45,044 nt of DNA from NCBI RefSeq assembly GCF_001436255.1, contig NZ_AZEI01000048.1:1-45044 (forward strand). Reading direction: 5' to 3'. The notes below the pieces were generated by a model. That model was not told the DNA's origin and made no database searches. It saw nothing but the letters and a program-made list of their open reading frames with translations. The position numbers and the translations under genes were made by a program. This document shows, in pieces, positions 5,133-20,448 of the stretch; the first letter of the stretch is position 1; the number at the start of each line of letters is the position of its first letter. This stretch comes from Lentilactobacillus rapi DSM 19907 = JCM 15042. GTDB lineage: Bacteria > Bacillota > Bacilli > Lactobacillales > Lactobacillaceae.

Positions 5133-6021
5133 GATTAATCCCCGCTTTCATTCTGAAAATCTCGTCAAGTGTCGGCGGCTGTTGGCTGAATTCTTCAATA
5201 TAGTGGCCTTTGGTTAATTGATCAAAGATTTCGGGCCCGGCAGCTGGATCATCCAGCCGCAAGACATAACGTTGGCCCCTGATGTGGGTCACTTGGACAA
5301 CGTGGGGCAACTCGCTTAATTGGGCCTCACTCCAAGCAGTGGTGACGTAGACCTCTGACTTACCAAATTGATCGCGCACTTCACTAATCGTGCCGTTTAG
5401 GACCAGATCCCCAGTTCGCAGCATCACAAGCCGATCACAAACGCTTTCGACGTTCGCCATGTTATGGCTGGAAAAGATAATCGCTGCACCCTGCTGTTTG
5501 GCTTCCAAAATCGCATTTTGCAGCAAATCCGCATTCACCGGATCAAGGCCGCTAAATGGTTCATCTAAAATGATGAGCTTGGGATGATGAATCAGCGTCA
5601 CAATCAATTGGACTTTCTGCTGGTTTCCCTTTGACAAGCTTTTAATTTGATCGTTCTTTTTGCCCTTAACCGCAAACTTCTCAAGCCAGTGATCGATTTG
5701 CGGGCGAATTTCTCTAGCTGGTTTGTTCTTCAACCTGGCCAAGTAAACGATCTGCTGCTCAATGGTCAGCTTTGGCATCAAGCTCCGTTCCTCTGGCAGA
5801 TAGCCGATTTCGTCAAACACTGATTCAGTTACCGGCTTGCCCTGCCAGCGAATGGTGCCGTCATACTTCAAAAAGTTCAAGATACTATGAAAGGTCGTCG
5901 ATTTGCCGGAACCATTTTGGCCGATTAAGCCAGTGATTTGCCCAGCCGGCACGTTAAAACTAACGTCATCCAGTGCCGTCACTGAGCCAAACTGTTTGTG
6001 GAGATGTTGAATTGCCAACAT
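5125..6021 (-). CDS. ABC transporter ATP-binding protein (NatA-like)
   Basis: A 298-residue ATPase with Walker A GQNGSGKSTTF near residue 34, the signature LSKGNQQK near 131, Walker B KLIILDEPFSG near 150, and the switch histidine in IIFSSHN. About 80 extra C-terminal residues (VYVTTAWSEAQLSEL to LDEIFRMKAG) are typical of the NatA/YhaQ subfamily. It is the first gene of the two-gene operon with the permease at 3909-5132. A good ribosome binding site (GGAGGCAATCAAA) precedes the ATG. A structured repeat (6043-6163) begins 22 nt upstream of the start codon, so it may sit in or overlap the promoter or leader. Confidence 0.92.
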   Translation of the reverse strand: MLAIQHLHKQFGSVTALDDVSFNVPAGQITGLIGQNGSGKSTTFHSILNFLKYDGTIRWQGKPVTESVFDEIGYLPEERSLMPKLTIEQQIVYLARLKNKPAREIRPQIDHWLEKFAVKGKKNDQIKSLSKGNQQKVQLIVTLIHHPKLIILDEPFSGLDPVNADLLQNAILEAKQQGAAIIFSSHNMANVESVCDRLVMLRTGDLVLNGTISEVRDQFGKSEVYVTTAWSEAQLSELPHVVQVTHIRGQRYVLRLDDPAAGPEIFDQLTKGHYIEEFSQQPPTLDEIFRMKAGINHE

Positions 6022-6042
6022 TTTGATTGCCTCCTAATATAA

Positions 6043-6163
6043 GTGAGTGGATCCAAGCGCTTAGAAGTCGGAGCGTAAGTCGCCGCTGAGAGAAATTCCC
6101 GCTTTTGGAATTTTTCTCAGTGGTGCTTACGCGTAGACTTCTGCTTGGAGGAGCTGTCCTAAA
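6043..6163 (+). repeat. Structured dispersed element, copy A
   Basis: A 121-nt element that folds into one long interrupted hairpin: CCAAGC/GCTTGG, AGAAGTC/GACTTCT, GCGTAAG/CTTACGC, CCGCTGAGA/TCTCAGTGG and apical AAATTCC/GGAATTT. The same element occurs at 8940-9060 and 18303-18440, with base changes on both sides of the stems. It starts with TAAGTGAGYGG as the second copy does and ends with GGAGGAGCTGTCCTAAA. It lies between the start of the minus-strand ATPase gene (6021) and the LPXTG gene (6420). Together with the copy at 8940 it brackets the surface-protein gene as a direct repeat. The function is unknown; it could be an RNA element or a MITE-like DNA repeat. Confidence 0.85.
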
Positions 6164-6314
6164 ACTTTCTTTAATAATACCATGACTAATCGGTTATTCT
6201 TAGTAATTACCCGCTAAAATCGACGATGTCAACAGAATGATCATTCATTTTTACGCGAAACAAAATTAATTGGAATTCGCAAACCGCGTCTCATTAGGAA
6301 TAAGTTAACCAATT

Positions 6315-6403
6315 TATAATTTAATATTTTATTTCTCATTTCATTCAAATAATATTCATAAGTCATTGCTAATATACGAGATGCATTAAAAAATCTCATA
6401 TAT
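6315..6403 (+). promoter_or_regulatory. Putative promoter and leader inverted repeat upstream of the LPXTG gene
   Basis: The gap from 6164 to 6419 is AT-rich. A TATAAT hexamer lies at 6315-6320, but no convincing -35 is seen (CATTAG at 17 bp). An inverted repeat at 6372-6403 (ATATACGAGAT paired with ATCTCATATAT) ends just before the GGAGG ribosome binding site at 6407. It could form a leader hairpin or act as an operator. Nothing else is recognisable in this stretch. Confidence 0.35.
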
Positions 6404-6419
6404 TTTGGAGGATTCAATT

Positions 6420-8939
6420 ATGAATAAACGACTAAAGACACAACTACTATTGGCAACCGGTGCCCTCGTTGGACTTGCAACGACAACCGGCCTCGACCAA
6501 GCTAACGTAAACGCCGACGAAAAGGTTGCCACTACTCCAACAACAAACGCTGGAGCCGCTACAACTGATCAGCTGACTGCCAGCGATACTAATACCGGAA
6601 CAACCGATCAGACAACGTTCCAATCACCACCGCCAGTTGAGTCGACAACAACTGATACGTCAGCTCCACAGGCGTACGGAAATGCTGGAACAGCTGACAC
6701 TGGGACTGATACAGGAGCAGCAACTACCCCAACAGGAACTACTCAGCCGACTGAAACTAATGAAACAGCTGAAACTAGTCAGCCAACTGGTTCGACGGCC
6801 ACAACGCCAGCTGAGACGACTCAACCAAGTGCAGGTCAAACATCTGGCGCAACGCAACAAGAAACTGGCGCAACAACAGGTGGCCAGGTAGATCAGGGAA
6901 GTCAAGAAGCCCCTGTGCAACAGTCGCCACAAGCACCAGTTCAGGAGAGTACTCCGGCACCAGCTCCACAGGCACCCGCAGATAACGGTGGTCAGAAATC
7001 GGGAAACACGGGTACAGTTAATAACGGTGCCCCAGAAAAATCCGAAACACCCGCTAAGGATCAGGATAAATCATCATCCGCTCCTGACAAACAGAATCAG
7101 CCTAAGAAAGACTCGGAATCTCAAGACAAAACAAGTAAGCAAGCAAAAGAAACAACCACTGAGAAAAAGCTTGTTCTTTGGGAAAAAGCAACTGGTGAAA
7201 ACGATGAACGCTTTATTATTTACCGAGTTCCTACGGTTAACCCTCAAACAAAAGAAACTGTATACGAAGCCCTTTTGTTTGAACCTTATAACGCAAATGA
7301 TCCAGAAGGAGAGGGAGAGTTTGTCAAGATTACTGAGGAAAATAATCCTGGACTACTGGCTCAGATTAAACAAGCTGATGATGCACGGGTGCTGAAGACA
7401 AAGTATCTGTCAGAAACCCATGACAACATTGAAGCTTTAAAGAAAGCTGTTGCAGATGGGGATGATAACGTTCGGTCATATATGATTGTTCTCCATGCGG
7501 ATGACCAACCACCCGTTATCTCTGATGAAGGCACTGCACTCCTTACCAATTATTATCTCAAGTCTGATGATGAGGATGTCCCTGATGATATCGAGTCTAC
7601 TTATGTTATTCAAAGAAACGATGGGCAGTTTTATAGGTTTGACGGTACTAGTTTTGCTGATAAAGTTACTGATGAAGTTGATGCTGCAAGGAGTGAGGGT
7701 GCGGTTCAATTTGGTTATACAAATGCGGAAGACATAAATAACCTGCAAACCTACTTGGCTGAATATCCTGATGCAACCGAATGGAAAAACTTCAAAATTA
7801 TTAAGTCAGGTACACCACCAACCGGTATTCCATCTTTCGAATCGAAAGCAACAGGGAAGCAATATTACAAGCCTACTGGGCTCCCTATTTCCCAGGAGAA
7901 TCAAGTGACTTTATTCGAGGACAATCAAGGAATTATTTATAAACTTGTATCCGATGATAATGGGGAACTAACATTCGAAGCCTTGGATACTGAATCTTTT
8001 GAATACGCCGAATATGAAGAAGCAAAAGATGCTTTGGGCCCGGAAATTACAAGCTACTTCTTAAAAACACAAGGGAATAAGGAAAAGGATCTTTTAGAAA
8101 AAGCATATAAAAATCCTACACAGCCATTTATAGCAAACGGGGTAACTTATATGCTCAAAACAACCGAGAACTTAAAAGGGTTCCCATCTGATCTTGCCAC
8201 TTGTGAGGGCGGCATAAAGGGACTTCACGTTTATGCAGCCAATGTAAATTATGCATACGTTGAAGAAGGAAAAACCTTATACATTTACGGTCAACACGAA
8301 CACTATGCTAAACTTGACAAACCAGTTTATACCTACGCCATGAACGAACGCTACGGTGTAAAAGTAACCGAAACTACGCCTCCTGGACCAGGAGGACCGG
8401 GTAACCCTGGAGGACCAGGTCCATCCATTCCGGATCCAGATCCAATCCCTGATCCAGAGGTAACACCACCAACACAAGAAACTACTCCAACACCAGAAAC
8501 GCAAACTCCTGATACCCCAACCACTCCCGAAGATGACATCGAGCTTCCACAAGCGCTCCCATCTGACGACAAGAAGGGTAACAGCAAGAAGAAAACCAGT
8601 TCAAGCAACAAGACTGGTAAGACTTCAACTGGCAAGAAGGACGGTGTGCTCTACCTCAAGAGCAACCCTGGTTCTGGTGCAAATGGTTCCGGCTCAACTG
8701 GCACTGGCCTTCAAGCATTGAATGCCAAGGGTGGTAGCACATTCAAGTACAGTAGCAATGATGCGGTTAAGCCTGCATCCGCTTCTACTGACGCCACTCA
8801 AAAGGATCAAGAACTCAAAACAGCGTCCATGTTGCCACAAACCGGTGACACGCACACCACAAACTGGTTAGCGGTACTTGGATTGTCTATGTTAGGATTG
8901 CTTGGCTTGGCGAAATTCCGCCGACGTCGCAAAAGCTAA
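6420..8939 (+). CDS. LPXTG cell-wall-anchored surface protein with degenerate repeats
   Basis: An 839-residue surface protein. The start at 6420 follows TTTTGGAGGATTCAATT; an upstream in-frame ATG at 6405 overlaps the ribosome binding site and is unlikely. Signal peptide about residues 1-32 (NKRLKTQLLLATGALVG, then NVNA). About 33-250 is low complexity, rich in T, P, Q, S and A. About 250-660 holds at least three weakly similar modules, each opening with a strand pattern such as LVLWE...FIIYRV, YVIQ...QFYRF or VTLFE...IIYKLV. Then comes a Pro/Gly-rich linker (PPGPGGPGNPGGPGPS), a Lys/Ser/Gly-rich wall-spanning part, and the sorting signal LPQTG with a hydrophobic segment and RRRRKS. Sortase A should anchor it. 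The ligand is unknown. A direct repeat flanks each side. Confidence 0.9.
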   Translation: MNKRLKTQLLLATGALVGLATTTGLDQANVNADEKVATTPTTNAGAATTDQLTASDTNTGTTDQTTFQSPPPVESTTTDTSAPQAYGNAGTADTGTDTGAATTPTGTTQPTETNETAETSQPTGSTATTPAETTQPSAGQTSGATQQETGATTGGQVDQGSQEAPVQQSPQAPVQESTPAPAPQAPADNGGQKSGNTGTVNNGAPEKSETPAKDQDKSSSAPDKQNQPKKDSESQDKTSKQAKETTTEKKLVLWEKATGENDERFIIYRVPTVNPQTKETVYEALLFEPYNANDPEGEGEFVKITEENNPGLLAQIKQADDARVLKTKYLSETHDNIEALKKAVADGDDNVRSYMIVLHADDQPPVISDEGTALLTNYYLKSDDEDVPDDIESTYVIQRNDGQFYRFDGTSFADKVTDEVDAARSEGAVQFGYTNAEDINNLQTYLAEYPDATEWKNFKIIKSGTPPTGIPSFESKATGKQYYKPTGLPISQENQVTLFEDNQGIIYKLVSDDNGELTFEALDTESFEYAEYEEAKDALGPEITSYFLKTQGNKEKDLLEKAYKNPTQPFIANGVTYMLKTTENLKGFPSDLATCEGGIKGLHVYAANVNYAYVEEGKTLYIYGQHEHYAKLDKPVYTYAMNERYGVKVTETTPPGPGGPGNPGGPGPSIPDPDPIPDPEVTPPTQETTPTPETQTPDTPTTPEDDIELPQALPSDDKKGNSKKKTSSSNKTGKTSTGKKDGVLYLKSNPGSGANGSGSTGTGLQALNAKGGSTFKYSSNDAVKPASASTDATQKDQELKTASMLPQTGDTHTTNWLAVLGLSMLGLLGLAKFRRRRKS

Positions 8940-9060
8940 GTGAGCGGATCCAAGCGATTAGCAATCGGAGTGTAAGTCTCCTCTAAGATAAATTCTGGGT
9001 TTGGAATTTGTCTTAGAGGTGCTTACATGCAGATTGCTGCTTGGAGGAGCTGTCCTAAAC
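8940..9060 (+). repeat. Structured dispersed element, copy B
   Basis: This begins on the base after the TAA stop of the LPXTG gene. Stems are CCAAGC/GCTTGG, AGCAATC/GATTGCT, TGTAAG/CTTACA, CCTCTAAGA/TCTTAGAGG and AAATTC/GAATTT. Compared with the copies at 6043 and 18303, the second, third and fourth stems differ in sequence on both arms while pairing is kept. Flanking sequences such as GTGAGCGGATCCAAGC and GCTTGGAGGAGCTGTCC are shared with the 6043 copy. As it follows the coding sequence directly, it would form the 3' end of the mRNA, just ahead of the terminator at 9069-9103. Confidence 0.88.
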
Positions 9061-9068
9061 AACCGTTC

Positions 9069-9103
9069 AAAAAAACTTCGAGGATTCAATCTCGAAGTTT
9101 TTT
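9069..9103. terminator. Bidirectional intrinsic terminator
   Basis: The hairpin ACTTCGAG / CTCGAAGT has a run of A on its left and a run of T on its right, so it can stop transcripts from both the LPXTG gene (plus) and tenA (minus), which converge here. Confidence 0.9.
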
Positions 9104-9111
9104 CTGTGTGT

Positions 9112-9810
9112 TTAATAATACTGCTTCATCGGTTTCACAAACTGCCAACCCGTTTGCTTATAAGCTTGATCCCAGAAGCGCCATTCCATTTCACAGCTCT
9201 TGAGGAATTCTTCCTTAACAATGTCCAAACGGTGCTGGTCGTACTTCACGGCTTCCCGATCAATCAAATCATACATTTGTTGGAGAATGCTGTCCTCGCT
9301 ATCGCCCATATCCGCGTAAAAGTCGATCCACGGCTTAAAGACGTTATCGTCAGTATTCTTGCCTTGCTTCACAAACCGGTTTGCGATTTCCAAGTACGTC
9401 CACGGACACGGTGTCATGGCGGCCACAATATCGATCAAGTCGCCAGTTCGCGCTGCTCGATACATGTGCTCGTTGTACAAATAAGTGCCGGGTGCTTGTG
9501 GTTCGTGCTGCAAAGTTTCATATTTCACCCCAGCAACGTTACAGAAATTGTGATGGGGGTGAATTTCACTATTTAAAATAAAATCAATTTGTTTGGCAAA
9601 AATTGCCATGTCTGCCCGGGTTTCCGACTTTTCAATGGCCGCCGCGTAGACCTTAATAAAGGCATTCAGGTAGTTATAATCCTGGCCAACATAAAATGTC
9701 AGGGCTTCTTTCGGCAAATCACCATTGCCGATGCCTTCGACAAATGGATGCTTGTAGATTTCTTGTAAAATTGGTTGACCGGCTTCCAGTAACTGTTGTG
9801 AAAATTTCAT
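9112..9810 (-). CDS. tenA: TenA family aminopyrimidine aminohydrolase / thiaminase II
   Basis: A 232-residue cytosolic enzyme of the TenA family, which hydrolyses 4-amino-5-aminomethyl-2-methylpyrimidine to the hydroxymethyl form (thiamine salvage) and can also cleave thiamine. Family hallmarks are visible: YVGQDYNYL with the aspartate at residue 44, and TPCPWTYL with the nucleophilic cysteine at 135, the same numbers as in Bacillus subtilis TenA. A C-terminal acidic cluster (EMEWRFWD, near 207-213) fits the catalytic glutamate region. The start chosen is ATG 9810, eight bases after AAGAGGAG; an in-frame ATG at 9831 lies upstream of that site and is less likely. The gene stands alone behind a TPP riboswitch at 9884-9980. 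No other thiamine genes are in the window. Confidence 0.95.
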   Translation of the reverse strand: MKFSQQLLEAGQPILQEIYKHPFVEGIGNGDLPKEALTFYVGQDYNYLNAFIKVYAAAIEKSETRADMAIFAKQIDFILNSEIHPHHNFCNVAGVKYETLQHEPQAPGTYLYNEHMYRAARTGDLIDIVAAMTPCPWTYLEIANRFVKQGKNTDDNVFKPWIDFYADMGDSEDSILQQMYDLIDREAVKYDQHRLDIVKEEFLKSCEMEWRFWDQAYKQTGWQFVKPMKQYY

Positions 9811-9883
9811 TGGGTAAAACTCCTCTTGCAAAAATTTTCAAATAAACCGTTACCGGACTTGGCACATGTTATTCTCAATTCTG

Positions 9884-9980
9884 TCACTTCCCTACGTTGG
9901 TATTAACCAAATCAGGTTCAAAGGGATTGGCGTTGCGCCATCTCAGCATTTAGCACCCCTAGTGGTCTCATTTGAATACT
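9884..9980 (-). promoter_or_regulatory. TPP riboswitch (THI element) upstream of tenA
   Basis: On the minus strand the conserved blocks appear in order: CTAGGGGTGCT, GCTGAGATGG, CCCTTTGAACCTGATTTGG and TTAATACCAACGTAGGGAAG. These are the pyrimidine- and pyrophosphate-sensor parts of the thiamine pyrophosphate aptamer. The aptamer ends about 74 nt before the tenA start codon. No stem with a run of U is obvious between aptamer and gene, so control may act on translation initiation, not on termination (inference). Confidence 0.95.
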
Positions 9981-10092
9981 CAAAGTTTACCACGTTTGGG
10001 TTGTTTGCAACAATCCGGTTATTCATGATACGCTATTAACAACTATTTTGAGGGGCTTGGGGAAATTTTATTTGATAAAGAGGTTTGTTGCC

Positions 10093-10473
10093 GTGAAATT
10101 TGATTTAAAATATGTCCTCATTACGAACTACTTAATGTACTCCATCTTAATTTTGTACCCGATTATCCAATTATTTGGGACAAATGATCTGATCAACCTG
10201 ATCATTTTGATTGCCGGTACGATCATTGTCCAATTGATCATCAGCAACACCTTTGGCCAGCGATACTTCAAACAACATCCTGAATACGCTCGAGCCAATC
10301 GAACGTTCACGTTAGCCGCCAACTTCAGCATAATCGTTGGAGCAGTTATTTTGTGGGCCCTCGTTTCATTTTCACTGCTTCAAAATGGTGAGCTTTTCTT
10401 TCTGGTTGTCACGATCATCGCAATCGTCGTAGAAGGGGTTAAGACGCCAATTAGAAAGGAGCGAAACGCATGA
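10093..10473 (+). CDS. Small membrane protein, paralogue 1 of 3
   Basis: A 126-residue protein with about four membrane segments. A GTG start at 10093 is chosen because AAGAGG lies eight bases upstream and because it lines the N-terminus (KFDLKYVLITNYL) up with the two paralogues that follow (AFKYSLLNNIP, AWKYSLLRNIP). All three share a loop after the second span: QHPEYARANR here, then QHPEYNPANRQLTKLG and KHPSYDPKHHQITKLG. The next gene overlaps the stop by four bases (ATGA). This is the first gene of a tightly packed operon that continues to 11958. No function is known to me. Confidence 0.7.
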   Translation: MKFDLKYVLITNYLMYSILILYPIIQLFGTNDLINLIILIAGTIIVQLIISNTFGQRYFKQHPEYARANRTFTLAANFSIIVGAVILWALVSFSLLQNGELFFLVVTIIAIVVEGVKTPIRKERNA

Positions 10474-10853
10474 TAGTTGCTTTTAAATACAGTCTTCTCA
10501 ACAATATTCCCGAATTTTTGATTTTTGCCTTAATTATGATTCAACAACTGACTCCCGTTCCCCTTCATATCATGTTGATTCTCTTACTCATCACTGGCTT
10601 ACTTTGGGGCGTTTATAGTATTATCTTCAAGCGGTGGTTCAACCAACATCCCGAATATAATCCAGCCAATCGTCAACTGACGAAGCTCGGCTACGTAATT
10701 CTTGGCTTTGGCCTAATTGGGGCTGCACTGTTATTTTTTGGCACACAATTGGCTGCCTACTTACCAACTATAATCGTGCTGATTATGACATTTCTTCTTA
10801 AGGATGTCTTTACGACCACTAATTGGGTTCGAGTCCGTCAAGGAGGCCACTAA
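10470..10853 (+). CDS. Small membrane protein, paralogue 2 of 3
   Basis: A 127-residue protein with about four membrane segments. The ATG overlaps the previous stop codon as ATGA and follows AGAAAGGAG. It shares the layout FKYSLLNNIP, two spans, F..W(F)NQHPEYNPANRQLTKLG, then two more spans separated by FFG, with its neighbours on both sides. The high similarity and gapless arrangement point to tandem duplication. The function is unknown; it carries no catalytic motif. Confidence 0.75.
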   Translation: MIVAFKYSLLNNIPEFLIFALIMIQQLTPVPLHIMLILLLITGLLWGVYSIIFKRWFNQHPEYNPANRQLTKLGYVILGFGLIGAALLFFGTQLAAYLPTIIVLIMTFLLKDVFTTTNWVRVRQGGH

Positions 10854-11240
10854 ATGGCTTGGAAATACAGCCTTCTCCGCAACATCCCTGTCCTCATCAT
10901 TTTTGGCTTACTGAATATTCAGGAATGGGCCAACCAGACCTTTCAAGGCATTCAGGGCCTCCAAGCCCTAAACAATATCACTAGCGTTCTGGCCTTAATT
11001 GCGATTATCATCTGGCCGACCCATTACTTCAGCTTCAAATATTGGTACCAGAAACATCCCAGCTACGATCCCAAACATCACCAAATCACTAAGCTAGGTG
11101 CCGGCCTAACCGCAATCGGTATTTTGGTTTCCTTTTACTTATTTTTCGGCATTGTTCCCCAAACCTACTGGCCGGGAACCATTGCGATTGTTATCACGTT
11201 TCTGGTGAAGGATGCCTTCACCACATCTCATTCGGTATAA
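10854..11240 (+). CDS. Small membrane protein, paralogue 3 of 3
   Basis: A 128-residue protein with about four membrane segments. The ATG directly follows the TAA of the preceding gene and has GGAGG ten bases upstream. The same conserved items are present: KYSLLRNIP near the N-terminus, FKYWYQKHPSYDPKHHQITKLG in the middle loop, YLFFG, and a KDAFTTS C-terminal tail (compare KDVFTTTNW in paralogue 2). The gene for a duplicated-domain soluble protein starts 22 bases after its stop. Confidence 0.75.
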   Translation: MAWKYSLLRNIPVLIIFGLLNIQEWANQTFQGIQGLQALNNITSVLALIAIIIWPTHYFSFKYWYQKHPSYDPKHHQITKLGAGLTAIGILVSFYLFFGIVPQTYWPGTIAIVITFLVKDAFTTSHSV

Positions 11241-11262
11241 AAATAGAAAGTGAGTTTTTCGA

Positions 11263-11958
11263 ATGCCCGCCAGCTATCTTGACATCAAGTTACCTAATCC
11301 CCAATCCGAAGAAAAGCTTCAAGCTGCGCTATACCAAATAACTGTTGGACTGGACAGTTTAGTTGATAAAATCCAAGGTGAAAGTTTTCAATTTGCTCGA
11401 CCAGGGTTCTTCATCGAAAATCTTGATCTGACTGAAGCAGAACACCAAATACTAACGACCTATTTTCGCAATCACCATAACGGCAGTCTTACCGCTAATC
11501 AAGCTTGGCTTAACAGCTGGCTTAAAGACAACATTTATGAAATGCCAGCTGACTTCGTTTTGCGAATGACCCAAGCTTATCGAAAATGGTTCATGTTTAA
11601 CTATGAGGAGGTCAAATTCATGCCTAACCACTGGCAAGAGATTCAATTGCCTGATCCGAACAGTCAGGCGGCATTGCGTGCAGTTTTGTTTCAAATCAAC
11701 AGTATTATGGTCGATATCGTTGATCAGCTCAAATCAACTGACCCGGACTTTGAATTACCTTTCCAGTTAACAATTGGCCTGAGTCAGGACGAAAGTGCCA
11801 CTATCCTGCAACATTTTCTCTTCCATAGAAATGCAAGTCTTGATGAAAACACCCAATGGCTGGCGAAGTGGCTCAATCAAAAAGGTTACTCGGTGCCTGC
11901 CAACGAAATTACCAAAGCAGCCAGTAATATTCAACGGTCAATTCAGTTGATGAATTAA
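11263..11958 (+). CDS. Soluble protein made of two tandem homologous domains, unknown function
   Basis: A 231-residue protein with two similar halves. The first (about 1-115) has MPASYLDIKLPNPQS, LQAALYQI, LVDKI, LTEAEHQILTTYF, NGSLTANQAWLNSWL and MPADF. The second (about 120-231) has MPNHWQEIQLPDPNS, LRAVLFQI, IVDQL, LSQDESATILQHFL, NASLDENTQWLAKWL and VPANE. There are no signal peptide or membrane spans; both halves look helical. The second half starts at an ATG (11620) with GAGGAGGT six bases upstream, so a separate 112-residue product could be made from inside the gene. It is the last gene of the operon starting at 10093. The terminal protein of the operon at 38574-40390 has a comparable size and helical pattern. 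Confidence 0.75.
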   Translation: MPASYLDIKLPNPQSEEKLQAALYQITVGLDSLVDKIQGESFQFARPGFFIENLDLTEAEHQILTTYFRNHHNGSLTANQAWLNSWLKDNIYEMPADFVLRMTQAYRKWFMFNYEEVKFMPNHWQEIQLPDPNSQAALRAVLFQINSIMVDIVDQLKSTDPDFELPFQLTIGLSQDESATILQHFLFHRNASLDENTQWLAKWLNQKGYSVPANEITKAASNIQRSIQLMN

Positions 11959-11983
11959 CGCGGTTGAGGTCTCAGCCACGCAA

Positions 11984-12030
11984 GTAAGTCCGTTATGAAA
12001 CATTTTTGTTGACTGAATTTCATTACTTAC
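11984..12030. repeat. Inverted repeat, possible degenerate relative of the structured element
   Basis: GTAAGT and ATGAAA (11984-12000) pair with TTTCAT and ACTTAC (12018-12030) to form a long imperfect hairpin upstream of the antitoxin gene. The preceding bases GGTCTCAGCCACGCAAG (11968-11984) resemble GGTCCTCGGCCACGCAAG at the end of the structured element at 18303-18440, and GTAAGTC...CTTAC matches its third stem. It could be a decayed copy, or simply an operator for the antitoxin gene. Confidence 0.35.
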
Positions 12031-12070
12031 ATAGCAACTTCTGTTAAAATCAGCTAGAGAGGTGATGAAG

Positions 12071-12340
12071 ATGGCAGCCACGAAAAAAGAGACCCTTAAA
12101 GTCAGAATAAATTCCCATCTAAAATCAGAAACCGAAAAACTGCTGAGCAGTATGGGATTAACTTACTCAGATGCAGTCACTTTATTTTCAAGCGCGATTG
12201 TTAATGAAGAAAAAATTCCTTTCGAAATACAATCGGATCCATTTTACGCTAAAGAAAACCAAGCAGTCTTGCGCAAGTCGATCAATCAGCTGGAGAGTGG
12301 AGCGGGCAAATACCACGATTTGATTGATAAAGATAAATAA
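12071..12340 (+). CDS. Orphan RelB/DinJ-family antitoxin
   Basis: An 89-residue protein with the ribbon-helix-helix N-terminus of DinJ/RelB antitoxins: a short strand (ETLKVRIN), then helices (LKSETEKLLSSMGLTYSDAVTLFSSAIV). A C-terminal tail with PFEIQSDPFY would normally wrap around a YafQ/RelE toxin. Start ATG 12071 follows AGAGGTG by six bases; in-frame GTG 12062 and ATG 12065 lie inside or too close to that site. No toxin gene follows: the next 26 bases lead to a terminator and then a convergent gene. It may be a free-standing antitoxin or a repressor, or the toxin may have been lost. Confidence 0.8.
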   Translation: MAATKKETLKVRINSHLKSETEKLLSSMGLTYSDAVTLFSSAIVNEEKIPFEIQSDPFYAKENQAVLRKSINQLESGAGKYHDLIDKDK

Positions 12341-12365
12341 GCAAACATCTCTCCATGAAAATAAT

Positions 12366-12409
12366 AAGGATCGAAATCTCATACAATAAGATTTCGATCC
12401 TTTTATTTT
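12366..12409. terminator. Intrinsic terminator (bidirectional)
   Basis: AAGGATCGAAATCT pairs with AGATTTCGATCCTT around an 8-9 nt loop, followed by TTTATTTT. It lies between the antitoxin gene and the convergent Rrf2-type regulator gene and could serve both. Confidence 0.9.
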
Positions 12410-12434
12410 CAGCATTTTAGCCATCCACCAGTTC

Positions 12435-12866
12435 TCAGCCCTTATCCAAATCAGCAAGCGTTGTCTGTTTCAAAGTCTTCAGCATTGCCGTTTCTGCCTG
12501 ATTAAGCACCTTGGAACTATTTTCCAGCCAATTTTCAACTTTTCCTTGATTGACAAATGCCGTCTTATCTACAGCTGAAGGCAACTTAAATAACGGAGTT
12601 GTCCCCTCAATTGCAACTAGAATATCATAAATCGTAATTTCTTTAGGCGCCTTAGCGAGCCGTAACCCACCGTTGACCCCGGTCTTCGACGTCAGAATAC
12701 CAGTCTTTTTAAGTGTCGCCGAGATTTTTTTAACGCTGGGAACCGGAATGTTGAGCATTTCGGAAATTTTTTGAATGGCTAAATAATCAAAATGCTCATC
12801 CTGCGATTTGGCATTCACATAGCCGGCAATTTCTAACGCTTGTGAGAAAGCAACCGAAAAGGACAT
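12435..12866 (-). CDS. Rrf2-family transcriptional regulator (no iron-sulfur cysteines)
   Basis: A 143-residue protein with a winged HTH in the first 80 residues. The segment LAIQKISEMLNIPVPSVKKISATLKKTGILTSKTGVNGGLRLAK shows the Rrf2 recognition helix and the G.NGG..L wing, followed by EITIYDILVAIEG. It has no cysteine at all, so it cannot hold the Fe-S cluster of IscR or NsrR and groups with YwnA/Rv1287-like members. A TTGGTATA-type palindrome lies 24 bp upstream of its start and again twice upstream of the MFS gene at 12927-14315 on the same strand, which suggests it regulates both. It may sense an electrophile, drug or redox signal through an unknown ligand (inference). Confidence 0.85.
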   Translation of the reverse strand: MSFSVAFSQALEIAGYVNAKSQDEHFDYLAIQKISEMLNIPVPSVKKISATLKKTGILTSKTGVNGGLRLAKAPKEITIYDILVAIEGTTPLFKLPSAVDKTAFVNQGKVENWLENSSKVLNQAETAMLKTLKQTTLADLDKG

Positions 12867-12889
12867 TGAATATACCTCCGATTAATTCA

Positions 12890-12912
12890 TTGTATATATT
12901 CTATTATACCAA
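12890..12912. promoter_or_regulatory. Putative Rrf2-regulator operator (autoregulatory site)
   Basis: On the minus strand TTGGTATA is followed after about eight bases by TATACAA, upstream of the regulator gene that starts at 12866. The same half-sites and spacing occur at 14345-14369, and a longer perfect version at 14374-14398, ahead of the MFS transporter gene. Confidence 0.55.
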
Positions 12913-12926
12913 TTATCCAGTTATAA

Positions 12927-14315
12927 TCAGTGCTTTTCTGCTGGCACGATCAAGGCAACCACTAACACGAGCCCGATAAAAGTCAGTCCAGCCCCAATCA
13001 GCATTGCCTGCCCGAAAACATCAGCAATTTTAGTCAAATGTGCTGTTGCAGCCGCAAAAATTGCCAGCCCCAAGGCCCCACCAAATTGACGGGCCGTATT
13101 ATACACACCAGATGCCGCCCCAGAAACTGCCGGGCGAATCCGTGCTAACCCGGAAGTCGCCAAGGTGGCAAACGCCAGTGCAAACCCAATCGCAAATCCC
13201 AACGGGCCAATCAATAACAGCCAGTAATTGGTTGTGTGAGCTACCATTGCCAGTTCCACCAAAGATAGCAGTACCACAACAAAGCCTAAAATCATCACAA
13301 TGGAATTGTTCCAGTGCTCAACCAGCTTACCTGCTTTAACGGCAACAATGAACAACAGCACCGCCATTGGCAACATCCCTAAGGCAGTTAAAAACGGACT
13401 GAATCCAAATGCCCCTTGCATAAACTGCGGCGTGTAAAACCAAAAACCGATTCCGGCAGCGCTAAATAATAACGAGCTAATATAAGAAGCCATTCGTTCT
13501 CGATCAGCAAAAATCTCCAGCGGCATCGTCGGCAGGGAAACCTTGGCCTGGCTGATAATAAACGCCACCCACAGAAACAATGAAATTAGAATTGTGGGAA
13601 TTGGCCACGGACTGCCATCCAAACCATACGAAATCGAAGTCATCGCTAAAATTGACAGGATGGTTCCCAACCAATCAATTTTCCCAGCTTGTTGACGAGC
13701 CGTCGGTAAGTCCCTACCAGCAACAATCACCATGATGAGTGCAATTGGCCCATTAACATAGAAACCAACCCGCCAGGAGGTGAAGGTCGCAAAGAACCCG
13801 CCAATCACCAGTCCAACCGCCGCACCGGCCCCAATTACCGAGGCGTAGTACCCAATTGCCTGCTGGCGAGCTTTACCTGTGAAAGTATCCGTCAGCAATG
13901 CCAGACAGTTTGGAGCCAAAATTGCCGCACCAATTCCCTGAAACGCTCGAAAGCTAATCATCGTCAGCGCATTCGTGGCAGCACCAACGGCTAAGCTGCC
14001 AACCCCAAAAATAATCAGACTGGTGATAAACAGTCGTTTGCGACCATAGATGTCACCCAGCTTACCACCAACCAGCATGAAGCCGGCATAGGTTAAAGCG
14101 TATGAAACCTGCACCCAGGATAATGCATTTGAATTTAGCTGTAACTGGGCCGCCATTTTAACGGTCCCAGTATAAACAATTGAGGTGTCGAGAACCCCAA
14201 GAAACGCGCCAATCAAGGCAAGGCCAAGAATGATTCTCTGAATTTTCGTTGTCTTCGCTGCTTCGGCAATCCCAGTCGGAGTGGCTTGGACTGCTTTTTC
14301 TTCTTCTCTTTCCAT
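12927..14315 (-). CDS. MFS multidrug exporter of the DHA2 (EmrB/QacA) family
   Basis: A 462-residue transporter with about 14 membrane spans. Family marks are visible: LDTSIVYTG in the first span (DHA2 motif D1), GGKLGDIYGRKRLF after the second (motif A), a QGIGAAILAPNCLALL stretch (motif B region) and GAGAAVGLVIGGFF (motif C of drug:proton antiporters). It ends PAEKH, near the usual length for the family. The Rrf2-type regulator gene lies 60 bp downstream on the same strand. Two TATAC-containing palindromes upstream suggest that this regulator controls it. Likely substrates are toxic organic compounds; the exact ones are unknown. Confidence 0.92.
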   Translation of the reverse strand: MEREEEKAVQATPTGIAEAAKTTKIQRIILGLALIGAFLGVLDTSIVYTGTVKMAAQLQLNSNALSWVQVSYALTYAGFMLVGGKLGDIYGRKRLFITSLIIFGVGSLAVGAATNALTMISFRAFQGIGAAILAPNCLALLTDTFTGKARQQAIGYYASVIGAGAAVGLVIGGFFATFTSWRVGFYVNGPIALIMVIVAGRDLPTARQQAGKIDWLGTILSILAMTSISYGLDGSPWPIPTILISLFLWVAFIISQAKVSLPTMPLEIFADRERMASYISSLLFSAAGIGFWFYTPQFMQGAFGFSPFLTALGMLPMAVLLFIVAVKAGKLVEHWNNSIVMILGFVVVLLSLVELAMVAHTTNYWLLLIGPLGFAIGFALAFATLATSGLARIRPAVSGAASGVYNTARQFGGALGLAIFAAATAHLTKIADVFGQAMLIGAGLTFIGLVLVVALIVPAEKH

Positions 14316-14344
14316 ATTTGTTAAACCTTCTTATATCAATTTCA

Positions 14345-14398
14345 TTGGTATATGGTTCTTATACTAATGTGAAATTAGTATATATTTTATATACTAAT
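14345..14398. promoter_or_regulatory. Two tandem palindromic operators upstream of the MFS gene
   Basis: Site 1 (14345-14367) has TTGGTATA and TATACTAA with seven bases between. Site 2 (14374-14398) has ATTAGTATAT and ATATACTAAT around ATTTT, a perfect inverted repeat. The two sites start about 30 bp apart. The arrangement matches the site upstream of the adjacent Rrf2 regulator gene and suggests repression of the exporter. Confidence 0.65.
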
Positions 14399-14458
14399 AA
14401 ATCAATAGAAAATCGCTGATTCATTGAAAATCCAGCGATCATTCGAATTTCCTTTATC

Positions 14459-14971
14459 CTATCCGTTCATTCCTTGAGTATATCCTCTCACAAAATCAAT
14501 AATTTCTGGAATCAAGATCAAGCCCAACCAAATGGCACCCCAAATAATCGTTGGCTTGGTTAACGCTTTGTTAAATTCGCGCCACTTAACTGATTTGAGC
14601 ACGAAGAAGAAACTACCAAGAACTGGTATAACCAACCAGCTTTCCAGTGTGTTCGTACTGATCCCAACTAGTGGATAACATACATACCCCACTATGGCAA
14701 TCGCAATTCCAAATAATAGTATCTTTGAAACCTTATTTACTCTGTTGGCCTTCTCTAATCTTTCCATTAACTGAGCATCTCCTTTAATTAGGTCGTCAAG
14801 CGAAATTCCAAATAAGTCACTAATTGCCACCACGTTTGAAAAGCTTGGTAAAGTCGTCCCGTTCTCCCATTTAGAAATCGACTGACGGGAGATGTGTAGT
14901 TCATCGGCAAGATCCGCTTGGGATAACCCATGAACTTGCCGTTGCATTTGAAGTTGTTCCGCGATTTTCAA
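14459..14971 (-). CDS. XRE-family regulator fused to a membrane domain
   Basis: A 170-residue protein. Residues 1-65 are a Cro/C1 HTH (LQMQRQVHGLSQADLADELHISRQSISKWENGTTLPSF, then DLFGISLDDLIKGD). Residues 75-165 hold three hydrophobic segments. The product is therefore a membrane-tethered DNA-binding protein, a layout common in lactic acid bacteria and bacilli. It is divergent from a second such gene at 15166 across a 194-bp gap that contains CGCAAAC/GTTTGCG inverted half-sites near 15078-15100. The target genes and signal are unknown. Confidence 0.85.
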   Translation of the reverse strand: MKIAEQLQMQRQVHGLSQADLADELHISRQSISKWENGTTLPSFSNVVAISDLFGISLDDLIKGDAQLMERLEKANRVNKVSKILLFGIAIAIVGYVCYPLVGISTNTLESWLVIPVLGSFFFVLKSVKWREFNKALTKPTIIWGAIWLGLILIPEIIDFVRGYTQGMNG

Positions 14972-15165
14972 AATGATGCCTCCTTTGTGATGATTTCAGT
15001 ATAAACATATTATATGATAGATGAGTAGCACTTAATGGTTGCAGAAGCATTTAGCAAATTAATTTCTGACAAAGCGCAAACTTTCCGATTAGGTTTGCGA
15101 TGGCTACAGTTCTTAGCTTGTTCTCTAGCATGGTCCGCCCTATATTGAAAGCGAGGTGATGGTAA

Positions 15166-15771
15166 ATGGATTTTGGCAGTAAAATTAAATCAGCTAGGCA
15201 AGATAAAGGGCTCACGCAAAAGGACATCGCGGAAAAGCTTCACGTTTCCCGGAAAACAATCTCCAGTTGGGAAACCGGCCGTAGTTATCCGGATATTGGG
15301 ACCTTAGTCGAACTTAGCGACATTTACCAGATATCTCTCGATAAACTACTACGGGAGGATTCAATGATGATCAAACACTATGATAAACAAGATGCAGCAA
15401 CGCGCCACGATCGATTACTGGGAACCGGCAGTTATTATTTGAACATTGCCCTATTATTTGTAACGTTTCTGGCTGAAACGAAATCTTTTCACCCTGAGTT
15501 CAAATATATGCCCTTTGTTCTTTTTATCAATTTAATTGTGTTGGTGAGTTATTTTGATTTTGACAACTTCTTTAGCACTAAATGGCACAAAATTACATTC
15601 ACGGCCGTGGGAGTGCCGTTTCTAATCCTATTGTTTGTCCTATCCGCATTCAGATTTGCGCCATTCACATCTTACTCAGCCGGGGAAGCCGCCGGTTCAA
15701 TCACACTTATTTTGGCGTTAACGGTGAGTTTTCTAATGGCGGTATTTGGCAAACCATATATGACGAATTAG
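15166..15771 (+). CDS. XRE-family regulator fused to a membrane domain
   Basis: A 201-residue protein. It has an N-terminal HTH (IKSARQDKGLTQKDIAEKLHVSRKTISSWETGRSYPDIG, then DIYQISLDKLLRED) and about four membrane spans from residue 85 on. The HTH is closest in wording to the one at 32615-33238 (HVSRKTISSWETGR). The start follows GCGAGGTGATGGTAA. It is followed by an intrinsic terminator at 15800-15836 and forms a single-gene unit divergent from 14459-14971. Confidence 0.85.
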   Translation: MDFGSKIKSARQDKGLTQKDIAEKLHVSRKTISSWETGRSYPDIGTLVELSDIYQISLDKLLREDSMMIKHYDKQDAATRHDRLLGTGSYYLNIALLFVTFLAETKSFHPEFKYMPFVLFINLIVLVSYFDFDNFFSTKWHKITFTAVGVPFLILLFVLSAFRFAPFTSYSAGEAAGSITLILALTVSFLMAVFGKPYMTN

Positions 15772-15799
15772 CAAAACAGATTGTTATCTTCCTAAAAAT

Positions 15800-15836
15800 G
15801 CGTTATAACCAGATATTGTGGTTATAGCGTTTTTTA
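15800..15836 (+). terminator. Intrinsic terminator
   Basis: GCGTTATAACCA pairs with TGGTTATAGCGT, followed by TTTTT. It ends the XRE-membrane gene at 15166-15771 and separates it from the rtpR promoter region. Confidence 0.9.
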
Positions 15837-15959
15837 GTATCTCAGCAGGTAACGCAAAGTGGCATTTTGGGGTGCCTAAATCAAAAAAATAAAAAATTTT
15901 TAGCCCGCCAAAACCGTGTCGGCTCGCCATTATGCTGGCTACAAGCAATTCGCGATCAA

Positions 15960-16007
15960 ACACCATATATTGCTTATTGGGAGTGTAGGAGATACTATAT
16001 ATAGTGT
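15960..16007 (+). promoter_or_regulatory. Two NrdR boxes and the rtpR promoter
   Basis: Box 1 (15960-15975) is ACACCATATATTGCTT and box 2 (15992-16007) is ATACTATATATAGTGT. The second is close to the NrdR consensus ACACTATATATAGTGT. The boxes begin 32 bp apart, three helical turns, as usual for paired NrdR sites. TTGCTT (15970-15975) with TACTAT (15993-15998) at a 17-bp spacing could be the -35 and -10, so both boxes would cover the promoter. A second possible -10 is TATAAT at 16027-16032. From 15841 to 15959 I see no B12 riboswitch and no other recognisable element. Confidence 0.85.
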
Positions 16008-16052
16008 TAATTCAAACGAAACGATTTATAATAGGTACTGGAGGAACGCAAT

Positions 16053-18302
16053 ATGCAAGCTATGAAACTTTCGTCAGTTTCACTATCTGACGAATTTATA
16101 AACAAAATTAAAAATGAAGTTACACCTCACTGGGGAGAGCTTGGTTGGGTTACCTATAAACGGACATACGCACGCTGGATTCCAGAAAAGCAACGAACAG
16201 AAAACTGGGACGAAACCGTTAAGCGGGTCGTTGAAGGTAACATTAACCTTGATCCTCGTTTACATGAAGACAATGTTGATCCTAAGGTGGTCGATGACTT
16301 AACCGAAGAAGCTAAAAAGCTCTATAAGTTAATTTATGGTTTGGGTGCTACCCCATCCGGCCGAAACCTTTGGATCTCTGGCTCAAGTTATCAGGATCGT
16401 AACGGTGACGCCTTGAACAACTGCTGGTTTATCGCCGTTCGCCCACAACCATACGGTGACAGCCACATTGTGCCAGAATACTTGAATGGTCGCCAAAAGG
16501 CCGTTTCCATGCCTTACTCTTTCATGTTTGACCAATTAATGAAGGGCGGCGGTGTCGGTTTTTCTGTCACAAAAGACAACGTTGAACAGATCCCGCAAGT
16601 TGATTTCAAAATCAATTTGACCATCTTAATTGATAAGACTAGCAAATCATATGACGAATCCATCAAAATGGGCGCTACTGACCGGGAAGACTGGTTAAAG
16701 AATCATTCAATCAAAGACGTTCGCTACTATCGTTTATCAGATACCCGTGAAGGCTGGGTCATTTCAAACGCGCATTTGATTGACCAACACTTTAATGAAA
16801 CTAATCCAACTCAACAATTGGATCTTGTCCTCGATATGAGTGACATCCGACCAAAGGGTGCCAAGATTAAGGGCTTCGGTGGAACAGCTTCAGGCCCAAT
16901 GCCACTGATCGAAATGCTATTTGATATTAATAACCTATTAAATGACCACGTTGGCCAAAAGTTGTCATCAGTGGACTGTACTGATATTGGTAACTTAATT
17001 GGTAAGACAGTTGTTGCCGGTAACGTTCGTCGTTCTGCTGAATTAGCATTAGGTTCAGCCGACGATGAAGCCTTCATTACAATGAAGCAAGACAAAGAGA
17101 AGCTCTACCATCACCGTTGGGCATCAAACAACAGTGTTGCCGTTGACTCCTCCTTTACCGATTATGGTCCCGTTGCCGACTCCATTCGTCACAATGGTGA
17201 ACCCGGCATCGTTAACTTGGAGCTTTCCAGAAACTACGGCCGTAAGATTGACGGTCGACAAGAAAATATCGATGGCAGTGTTGAAGGAACCAACCCATGT
17301 GGCGAGATTTCCCTTGCCAATGGTGAACCTTGCAACTTGTTCGAAGTCTTTCCAACGGTTGCTGAACAAGAAGGCTGGGACTTACATGAAGCCTTTTCAC
17401 TTGGAACCCGTTATTCTAAGCGAGTTACCTTCAGTAATTACGACTGGGAAGTTTCCCGTAACGCCATTGAAAAGAACCGTCGTATTGGTATCTCAATGTC
17501 AGGCATCCAGGACTGGATTTTGTCCCGCTTTGGTAACCGAGTGGTTGTTGGTTATGAAGACGCCACTGATCCTGAAACTGGTGCTGCAATCAAGAAGCCA
17601 ATCTATGACAAGCGTGCCGTTAAAGAATTTGATGGTTTATACAAAGCAGTTGTAAAGGCTGATAAAGATTACTCAGAAACTTTGGGCTGCAACCCATCAA
17701 TCAAGCACACCACTGTTAAGCCTTCAGGAACTGTTGCCAAATTGGCTGGTGTTTCAGAAGGGATGCATTTCCACTATGCAGGCTACTTGATTCAACGAAT
17801 TCGATTCCAAGATACTGATCCATTGTTGCCAGCTCTTAAAGCGGTTGGCTATAACGTTGAACCAGATGTTTATACCAAGAACACGATGGTTGTTGAATTC
17901 CCAGTAAGAGCGGCTCACGCTGACAGCAAGGACTTTGCTTCAGCTGGAAACGTCTCAATTGCTGAACAGTTTGCAACTCAAGCATTTTTGCAGACGTACT
18001 GGTCAGATAACGCGGTTAGTTGTACCGTTACTTTCCAACCAAATGAAGGCGACCAAATTGCCCCATTGATGACCCAGTACCGTCACACAACAAAATCGAC
18101 CTCATTGCTTCCATATACGGGTGCCGGCTTCAAGCAAGCACCTAAGGAACCAATCGATCAAAAAGAATATGAAAAGCGTGTTCTCCAGATCTCAGGAGAT
18201 GTCGCAAAAGTCTTCGCCCAACAAAATGACAACCATGATAAGAAGGACATTGAATTGGTTGACCAAACGGATTGTGCGGGAGGCGCATGCCCAATTCGAT
18301 AG
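16053..18302 (+). CDS. rtpR: Adenosylcobalamin-dependent ribonucleoside-triphosphate reductase (class II)
   Basis: A 749-residue monomeric enzyme that reduces ribonucleoside triphosphates to dNTPs with adenosylcobalamin as radical source. It is close in length to the 739-residue Lactobacillus leichmannii enzyme. The five functional cysteines are all present with correct spacing: C124 in NNCWFIAV and C427 in EPCNLFE (the redox pair), C416 in TNPCGEI (the thiyl radical site), and C741 and C746 in the C-terminal DCAGGACPIR that reloads the active site. The start is ATG 16053 after CTGGAGGAACGCAAT. NrdR boxes lie upstream, a structured element starts directly after the stop, and a cobalamin adenosyltransferase gene follows 371 bp later. 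No class I or III reductase gene is in the window. Confidence 0.98.
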   Translation: MQAMKLSSVSLSDEFINKIKNEVTPHWGELGWVTYKRTYARWIPEKQRTENWDETVKRVVEGNINLDPRLHEDNVDPKVVDDLTEEAKKLYKLIYGLGATPSGRNLWISGSSYQDRNGDALNNCWFIAVRPQPYGDSHIVPEYLNGRQKAVSMPYSFMFDQLMKGGGVGFSVTKDNVEQIPQVDFKINLTILIDKTSKSYDESIKMGATDREDWLKNHSIKDVRYYRLSDTREGWVISNAHLIDQHFNETNPTQQLDLVLDMSDIRPKGAKIKGFGGTASGPMPLIEMLFDINNLLNDHVGQKLSSVDCTDIGNLIGKTVVAGNVRRSAELALGSADDEAFITMKQDKEKLYHHRWASNNSVAVDSSFTDYGPVADSIRHNGEPGIVNLELSRNYGRKIDGRQENIDGSVEGTNPCGEISLANGEPCNLFEVFPTVAEQEGWDLHEAFSLGTRYSKRVTFSNYDWEVSRNAIEKNRRIGISMSGIQDWILSRFGNRVVVGYEDATDPETGAAIKKPIYDKRAVKEFDGLYKAVVKADKDYSETLGCNPSIKHTTVKPSGTVAKLAGVSEGMHFHYAGYLIQRIRFQDTDPLLPALKAVGYNVEPDVYTKNTMVVEFPVRAAHADSKDFASAGNVSIAEQFATQAFLQTYWSDNAVSCTVTFQPNEGDQIAPLMTQYRHTTKSTSLLPYTGAGFKQAPKEPIDQKEYEKRVLQISGDVAKVFAQQNDNHDKKDIELVDQTDCAGGACPIR

Positions 18303-18440
18303 TGAGCGAAGATAAGTGCGCGGAGCAAAGCGGTTAATAACCGAAACATAAGTCGCCACCAGCAGAAATCCTGGTTTTGGATTTTTGTTGGTGGTGCTTA
18401 TGTGCAGGTTATTGCTTTGTGGAGCGGTCCTCGGCCACGC
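18303..18440 (+). repeat. Structured dispersed element, copy C
   Basis: This starts on the base after the TAG stop of rtpR. Stems are CAAAGC/GCTTTG, AATAACC/GGTTATT, CATAAG/CTTATG, CCACCAGCAG/TTGTTGGTGG and AAATCC/GGATTT. It is clearly diverged from the copies at 6043 and 8940, yet nearly every stem change is matched on the other arm. The unpaired parts GTGAGCG, AAGTCGCC, TTTTGGA, GGTGCTTA and GGTCCT are kept. It would form the 3' end of the rtpR message. The 150 bp after it hold nothing recognisable until the terminator at 18598. Confidence 0.85.
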
Positions 18441-19213: not shown

Positions 19214-19253
19214 CAGCGTGGCCAAAAGACGCTCTGATTTCAGAATTTAAGTA

Positions 19254-19293
19254 GAGAACGCAATCATTCCGGGTTTGGAGTGGTTGCGTTTTC
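19254..19293 (+). terminator. Intrinsic terminator
   Basis: AGAACGCAATCATTCC pairs with GGAGTGGTTGCGTTTTCT. It lies 41 bases after the adenosyltransferase stop codon. Confidence 0.85.
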
Positions 19294-19478
19294 TGTTTAA
19301 ATAGCAGGAGTCAACTTTTTGACCACGTTTCCACGAGGTAATCTTACTCAACACTGGCACCTGTCAATTTCCACCCAGCAATCGCTAATGATATTAAAGC
19401 TGTGCCAATGCTTATTTACCCACTTGATTCTCAAATGTAGTACGATTCAACTAAACAGCTCTTTAAGGAGGCCATTCT

Positions 19479-20228: not shown

Positions 20229-20350
20229 TCACTAACCAACCATTATCTGCCGTCACAATTTGATAAGATGAACGTCTTAAAAGCGTTTGAGACATTAATC
20301 GGCAAATTGTCTATGAAGGCGCATTTTTACATTAACAAAGCTGCGATAAA

Positions 20351-20448
20351 CGGCTGATCTCGACCATTTAACAAAAGGACCAATTATTCCAATCAGGAAT
20401 AATTGGTTCTTTTCATTAAACTCTGGGATTAAATCGCTTTTCGTCCCA
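20351..20448 (-). repeat. 3'-end element, copy 4
   Basis: This follows the minus-strand dehydrogenase gene that ends at 20463. On the minus strand: TTGGGACGAAAAGCGATTT, AATCCCAGAGTTTAATG, a hairpin (AACCAATTATTCC with GGAATAATTGGTCC) and TTTT, then GTTAAATGGTCGAGATCAGC. It closely matches the copy at 2496-2599, including the sequence CGGCTGAT beyond the hairpin, so the repeat is about 100 bp long. The remainder of the gap from 20229 to 20350 shows nothing recognisable. Confidence 0.6.

Follow-up and report, generated by a model that had tools for sequence, protein, structure and literature searches.

Three copies of a hairpin-forming element in Lentilactobacillus rapi

The window, a stretch of 45,044 nt from Lentilactobacillus rapi DSM 19907 = JCM 15042 that was analysed as a whole (contig NZ_AZEI01000048.1, assembly GCF_001436255.1), contains three copies of a hairpin-forming element of about 120 nt, all on the plus strand. 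Copy 1 (6043-6161, +) is of the A-type (GTGAG...GTCCTA), and its left end is positioned upstream of a minus-strand ABC ATPase gene (5125-6021), at 21 nt from the start codon. The complement of the Shine-Dalgarno sequence of this gene (cctcct, 6030-6035, minus strand), read by eye, is located 7 nt to the left of the element, and copy 1 is presumed to lie, in antisense orientation, in the 5' untranslated region (UTR) of the ATPase gene. Copy 2 (8940-9057, +), also A-type, begins right behind the TAA stop codon (8937-8939) of a gene for an LPXTG surface protein and is followed by a terminator-like hairpin with a T run (9070-9103, +), between which and the stop codon it is enclosed; this hairpin is a consensus match only, of a kind found 3 times in the region versus 3.8 times expected from shuffled sequences. 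Copy 3 (18316-18432, +) begins 13 nt past the TAG stop codon of a B12-dependent ribonucleotide reductase gene (16053-18302).

A preliminary description of this DNA had reported three copies with a common interrupted hairpin. Folding bore this out, with energies of -66.4, -59.4, and -61.3 kcal/mol for copies 1, 2, and 3 (z = -9.8, -9.7, and -8.8, respectively), and none of 200 shuffles per copy folded as low. Copies 1 and 2 lie where they had been reported, but copy 3 had been started at 18303, whereas its fold begins at 18316. The intervening nucleotides (18303-18315, +; tgagcgaagataa) probably derive from the left end of an upstream unit that has been deleted, because G011, the closest relative found, carries a tandem array of three units there, the last of which begins with GTGAGCGAAGC. 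The copy 3 site is also occupied, by elements with differing stems, in G004, G014, G022, G006, G009, G008, and G005, while reading of the corresponding DNA of G010, G012, G015, G016, G003, G018, and G019 revealed no element. The surface protein encoded upstream of copy 2 (6420-8939) comprises 839 amino acids, with an N-terminal region that on reading is rich in Thr and Pro; Pfam recognises only its LPXTG anchor motif.

Conservation of structure and of a single strand

The unit of 119 nt forms one long hairpin of four helices plus a hypervariable end stem. The helices are parted by internal loops that are conserved: a purine loop of the GGA/GGA type, a GGTT-type bulge of 4 nt, and a second purine loop. 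Its short ends are likewise conserved, with G.G.GCGGA on the left (GTGAGC or GAGTGC in the alignments) and either GGAGCAC..TTT (B-type) or GGAGCTGTCCT (A-type) on the right; some B-type tails hold ATGTAG further to the right. Terminal pairing outside the main stems is limited to 3 base pairs. The stems quoted in the preliminary description are those of the predicted structure.

Covariation was analysed in two alignments. The first consisted of 45 of the 107 aligned full A-type copies from the L. rapi genome, chosen for diversity and including the three window copies. Here, 27 of 41 pairs showed changes on both sides, the covariation score was 0.474 as compared to 0.190 for shuffled and 0.057-0.117 for slid partners, and none of five covariation measures was reached by any of 500 shuffles. 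The second, cross-genus alignment (A3) comprised 37 sequences of diverse subtypes and genera, including copies with 66% G+C (L061) and one from Pediococcus ethanolidurans (L155). Although stem sequences were unrelated between genera, 39 of 42 pairs had changed on both sides, 91.5% of cells were paired, and the covariation score reached 0.764 versus at most 0.178 in controls. The compensatory changes reported earlier were thus found again in a much wider sample, and absence of covariation beyond chance, named in the preliminary description as grounds for abandoning selection, was not observed. Its statement that unpaired parts are kept also held, since the non-complementary internal loops are the same across genera: ten unpaired columns of A3 (1, 3, 7, 17, 31, 98, and 118, G; 19 and 20, T; 120, A) were kept in 30-37 of the 37 sequences. 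These results indicated that the structure is selected and that the stem sequence is not.

Compensatory change could also arise without selection, as a mutational artefact by which correction of a palindrome copies one arm onto the other. In line with such a process, the same stem variants are met repeatedly in a genome as entire blocks, and there is partial reassortment of stem 1 with stem 2 among copies (mutual information 1.34, as compared to a null of 0.83 and a ceiling of 3.19). Palindrome correction should, however, also erase internal loops, and it is this retention of non-complementary loop bases across genera, together with a strand-asymmetric tolerance of G.T pairs, that makes this explanation highly improbable.

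The asymmetry follows from pairing rules: a G.T pair is legal only on the plus strand, and an A.C combination only on its complement. Across genera, G.T outnumbered A.C by 121 to 22 (25 versus 7 columns, p = 0.002). This bias is to be read with two reservations: inference of the structure applied RNA rules to the plus strand and thereby favours G.T, and the subfamilies are not mutually independent. In the L. rapi and G011 copies, counted after setting aside five columns of fixed G.T, the excess resided mainly in the outer end stem, a hypervariable segment with 162 different arms among 284 copies. Its G.T:A.C ratio was 40:3 where the neighbouring gene is on the opposite strand, 11:4 where it is on the same strand, and 63:8 in G011. 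The excess was slight in stem 3 (21:8 in all) and hardly present in stems 1 and 2 (33:26 and 39:36). The plus strand of the three window copies also folds 13-19 kcal/mol more stably than the complement. That G.T is in excess next to opposite-strand genes suggests that selection does not simply follow the strand of the local messenger RNA (mRNA).

A dispersed, array-forming family

The element is not confined to the window. A BLAST search of the L. rapi genome with copy 2 identified 97 places, a few of them partial, and covariance model R1 yielded at least 150 matches. The genome was sampled around these matches in 33 stretches which, together with the window, cover 488 kb; a profile search of this DNA gave 156 non-overlapping hits. 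Those of at least 50 bits (135 hits) group into 70 arrays: 32 of one unit, 22 of two, 9 of three, 3 of four, and 4 of five. Only two of the 70 lie inside a called open reading frame (ORF). Units are most often separated by 7 nt after CCT (71 of 129 linkers). The earlier view that a structure is under selection, as opposed to a repeat in decay, was supported by the pairing across genera, but "structure" and "repeat" are both true: the three copies belong to a dispersed, array-forming family with at least 150 copies in its own genome, which the preliminary description had missed.

Tandem duplication was considered as the only source of arrays and was disfavoured, because adjacent copies are seldom most similar to each other: in 4 of 100 cases the closest relative in the genome was an array neighbour. 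Linkers partly repeat the left flank of the array, above chance (mean suffix match 2.67 versus 1.65), and the right ends of 111 arrays do so weakly, slightly above shuffles.

Placement at gene edges

Placement was assessed for the 66 arrays with two called neighbours, by comparison with random placement within the same gaps. In 45 of these arrays, no more than 26 nt separated the left end from a gene, versus 12.2 expected and a maximum of 23 in 5000 random placements; for the right end, this held in 7. For 20 of the 28 arrays behind a same-strand gene, the distance from stop codon to element is between -4 and +13 nt. The left neighbour is on the opposite strand in the other 38, and here the start codon is within 26 nt in 25 cases, 14 of them at 20-26 nt; many of these antisense-placed arrays have a Shine-Dalgarno complement in their left flank. 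In 99% of the 70 arrays, an A immediately precedes the left end, and for one array (L021:7882) the left neighbour is itself another element. Judged from these positions, many copies are presumed to lie in UTRs.

Outside the species, placement was scored for 51 array-leading copies, 48 of them from other genera or families. A same-strand stop codon was abutted by 25 (22 of the 48), an opposite-strand start by 4, both by 2, and neither by 20. By eye, several of these last 20 lie behind a terminator-like T run, and one (L266) behind a tRNA-like 3' end. The count made use of 73 of 104 matches; those dropped were mainly opposite-strand palindrome matches, in addition to a few partial or repeated matches on the right strand (among these, both L061 copies, and L270, a repeat of L254). 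It includes L257 and L261, near-identical copies from different genomes, as well as the Lentilactobacillus loci L234, with two copies, and L244. L280 was scored as stop-type but resembles the Shine-Dalgarno-side sites more closely.

Integron attC sites, which have a GTT core, R and L boxes, and an integrase that acts on them, also keep structure over sequence. By analogy, folded, strand-specific recombination sites of this kind might account for the hypervariable end stem, the position directly behind stop codons, and the arrays. Reading of the alignments, however, showed no GTT core at the element ends, the arrays consist of bare units with linkers of about 7 nt instead of gene cassettes, and the frequent opposite-strand left neighbours do not fit; an attC-like origin therefore has little probability. 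Still less credible is a family of independently transcribed, trans-acting small RNAs. Conserved loops, and an end-stem G.T excess that is alike beside same-strand and opposite-strand genes, would be expected of such RNAs, but on reading no promoter-like sequence was shared to the left of the arrays, what precedes the arrays is mostly the end or the leader of a gene, and the copies, at least 150 in number, differ greatly in their stems.

Turnover at persistent sites

Comparison with G011 was based on 35 orthologous sites with flanks of 95% median identity. Copy number was equal at 13 sites and different at 22. The best G011 match of an L. rapi copy lay in the orthologous array for 19 of 68 copies, with a median of 0.825 inside that array versus 0.916 elsewhere. 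Three of the 35 L. rapi arrays had no scored element in G011, although one of these sites keeps a short remnant by eye. In the opposite direction, two distinct G011 arrays mapped to L. rapi DNA without an element (one G011 site is listed twice, as L121 and L202 overlap); by eye, one of them has a decayed remnant, while the other (G011 array L081:2902 versus L. rapi L033 near 4704) is a clean presence/absence site. Among six Shine-Dalgarno-side arrays with a readable relative, three shared the element, one had a cut-off copy, and two lacked it, in a comparison biased by the choice of relatives' loci that hold an element somewhere.

A more distant comparison, with G006 (81% median protein identity), took the 156 profile hits and 18 weaker matches of the cross-genus covariance model R2 as L. 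rapi elements. G006 had an element in 7 of 20 gaps that hold one in L. rapi, versus 3 of 50 that do not (p = 0.004), and the difference remained when L. rapi gaps of at least 120 nt were considered (7/20 versus 2/26, p = 0.029). Arrays thus tend to keep their positions from one species to the next, while their units undergo gain, loss, and replacement.

Elements are unevenly distributed along the G006 chromosome, with 8 in 0-0.4 Mb and 77 in 1.2-2.0 Mb (85 of 94 matches counted; the nine dropped overlap a better opposite-strand match). Targeting by replication strand was considered and rejected, as no strong strand bias was seen in G006 (plus/minus 42/35 in 1.2-2.0 Mb and 2/6 in 0-0.4 Mb).

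Persistence of positions bears on the strongest alternative to a mobile element, namely a domesticated cis-acting mRNA element whose hairpins protect or process transcripts, by blocking exonucleases or by RNase III cleavage, and which is turned over by incidental recombination. Such a role would be consistent with the tight placement just outside the translated region, with copy 2 between a stop codon and a terminator-like hairpin, with retention at orthologous gaps in G006, and with the plus-strand bias of G.T over A.C. However, elements in 5' positions are oriented oppositely to those in 3' positions with respect to the gene, and the mRNA therefore carries the weaker complement in the 5' case. 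Moreover, 8 of 23 congeners have no R1 match, four of them with only one to three R2 matches, and copy number differs at most of the sites shared with G011. We consider domestication, on balance, rather unlikely.

Distribution across genomes

Model R1 matched 15 of the 23 congeners, 4 of 13 genomes that each represented another genus of the family, and 0 of 23 genomes of other families. With model R2, 143 of 251 Lactobacillaceae genomes (L. rapi included) in 24 of 40 genera were positive at E 1e-5. An order-wide draw at 1e-6 gave 60 of 295 genomes, 41 of them outside Lactobacillaceae and several scoring weakly, with best E-values from 5.7e-22 to 6.7e-7. In a phylum-wide draw, which served as control for weak scores, only 2 of 299 genomes matched, namely L. 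rapi itself and one member of the class (54.9 bits). The best 12 to 14 matches per genome were scored in the R2 runs, and model E-values are rough.

Copies were also present on 7 plasmid records, six from L. plantarum and one from L. parabuchneri, all typed as mobilizable; the phage records scanned contained none. The element and its flank are near-identical at L257, L259, L260, and L261, from genomes of different genera (G101, G146, G282, and G364, the last of another family). Judged from sequence likeness, this suggests that a shared plasmid or other mobile DNA may carry the element.

Four weaker R2 matches in the window (36-51 bits) all scored below the best match from outside the order (54.9 bits). 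The highest, at 19216-19331 (+; 50.7 bits), may be a strongly diverged relative, and those at 2481-2596 (-; 45.0 bits) and 20336-20451 (-; 36.4 bits) are possible, uncertain diverged relatives; the match at 21614-21704 (-; 37.8 bits), also uncertain, may be diverged or partial. All four are palindromes of a low-G+C type (CAGAATTTAA...TTAAATGGCGGGGATCA in part), of which another was seen by eye in L042 (ca. 2255-2370). They possibly constitute a second, related repeat family of the same plan.

Proposed origin and mechanism

Taken together, these results probably reflect a Lactobacillales family of structure-conserved, non-autonomous, dispersed elements of about 120 nt, on whose folded plus strand an enzyme acts. 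The folded strand, as RNA or single-stranded DNA, would be recognised by this enzyme, and the element would spread as a mobile element. Gains of units would represent insertions, for which the left boundary of existing units may be preferred, and the hairpins left in mRNA UTRs would probably affect stability or RNase III processing, either as a by-product or to the benefit of the host. A more specific proposal, which we put forward tentatively and regard as possible rather than probable, is that the family represents a new kind of mobile hairpin: order-wide, without sequence-bound identity, and recognised by the enzyme that moves it purely through the fold and a few loop bases on one strand. 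Its left end would be inserted where translated DNA, or DNA with some other function, has its boundary (a stop codon, a Shine-Dalgarno sequence, perhaps a tRNA end or a terminator), and arrays would grow at their own left boundary.

Mobility of palindromes is known from repetitive extragenic palindromic (REP) elements that are moved by a Y1 transposase (RAYT). The present family would fit such a system in being dispersed and palindromic, in combining variable stems with conserved bases at the foot, and in its bias for one single strand. However, the unit of 119 nt exceeds the 20-40 nt of REP elements, and a Y1 transposase domain (Y1_Tnp, PF01797) was detected in 7 of 24 genomes of the genus, with none in the element-rich G003, G004, G006, G009, G014, G018, G021, and G022. 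The G006 assembly consists of two contigs and is rated 100% complete. The sole Y1 match in L. rapi (L042, G000:C22) lies, by reading, beside a divergent tnpB-like gene, an ordinary-looking IS200/IS605 arrangement. The transposase survey thus disfavoured a REP/RAYT origin, to which we assign only a very low likelihood. A miniature inverted-repeat transposable element with transposase ends, raised in the preliminary description as a competing identity, was not found either in the sampled L. rapi and G011 DNA, where the only split copy (L221) has a gap of 261 nt, which is too short for a transposase gene of an autonomous parent.

Several observations weigh against a mobile element inserted at gene edges. 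No enzyme was found in a survey that covered Y1 transposases, other recombinases and reverse transcriptases not having been searched, and no autonomous version in the sampled L. rapi and G011 DNA. A target-site duplication was not established: the left flank is partly repeated in linkers, but only weakly at the right ends of arrays. Few sites are cleanly empty, and the turnover might therefore be due to recombination instead of transposition. Persistence of position is also expected of a domesticated element, and in G006 the association was weaker when both gaps were required to be at least 120 nt (7/17 versus 2/18, p = 0.06). Finally, 21 of the 66 L. rapi arrays are away from any called gene edge, some of which may reflect wrong starts or unseen small genes, as genes were called by a simple ORF picker, and the 20 of 51 leading copies elsewhere that abut neither kind of edge are a comparable exception.

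Since the family brings long hairpins close to the stop codons or ribosome-binding sites of numerous genes, it may influence mRNA ends throughout the genome. For annotation, it is relevant that in six of the 70 arrays the upstream ORF, as called, ends in TGA within the element's own GTGA, so that the element supplies the called stop codon. Conservation without sequence, placement at gene edges, and turnover at fixed sites together turn the question of how a fold alone is copied or targeted into a testable one.

Comparison with known structured repeats

The preliminary description had assigned the element to no named family, which agrees with the searches made here. At gathering score, Rfam 15 matched nothing over the window elements; its sole window match was a TPP riboswitch (RF00059, 80.8 bits; 9872-9970, -) upstream of a TenA/THI-4 family gene (9112-9831). 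Over 20 loci from other genera it gave two matches (RNase P and T-box), both off the elements. When E-values up to 1 were admitted over 5900-9200, one match touched an element (MIR2109, 21.8 bits, E 0.4). Literature searches returned no description of the family by title or abstract start, in a coverage that leaves out most subscription journals, and element motif strings matched only papers on unrelated subjects, as judged by title. The family, with many copies in many genomes, adds to lactic acid bacteria a structured repeat without a match in the Rfam 15 scans that were run, and it is apparently undescribed.

BOX elements are built of boxA-boxB-boxC modules; the unit of the present family is a single 119-nt hairpin. 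In PMC3049150, BOX, RUP, and SPRITE of Streptococcus pneumoniae are described as small, dispersed, hairpin-forming, likely parasitic repeats that probably affect co-transcribed genes and occur almost exclusively in pneumococcus and S. mitis, apart from relatives of BOX in S. suis. The L. rapi element resembles them as a small dispersed hairpin-forming repeat; as far as a comparison by description goes, it differs in its order-wide fold with unrelated sequences, whole-unit tandem arrays, and gene-edge placement. ERIC/IRU elements of enterobacteria have a length of about 120 nt. They form one long stem-loop, according to PMC2267715. Both families are thus single, long, imperfect, intergenic palindromes but, by description, the stems of the present one vary freely with compensation, arrays are common, and left ends lie at gene edges. 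Efa-1 of Enterococcus faecalis, a 163-nt double hairpin according to PMC2267715, is likewise an intergenic structured repeat of Lactobacillales, from which the present family, again compared by description, differs in forming one interrupted hairpin.

Candidate structured RNAs of Lactobacillales listed in PMC2864571 include Lacto-int, Lacto-usp, Lacto-rpoB, and lactis-plasmid. The latter three carry Rfam accessions there and none of them matched the elements, while Lacto-int appears in that text without an accession. REP elements, described as palindromes of 20-40 nt with a GTAG or CGTC tag, share high copy number, variable stems, and a conserved foot with the present family, which differs from them in length and in the lack of a Y1 transposase in eight element-rich genomes. 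With many dispersed intergenic copies and a common fold, the family is a small interspersed structured repeat of the same general kind as BOX, RUP, ERIC, and REP.

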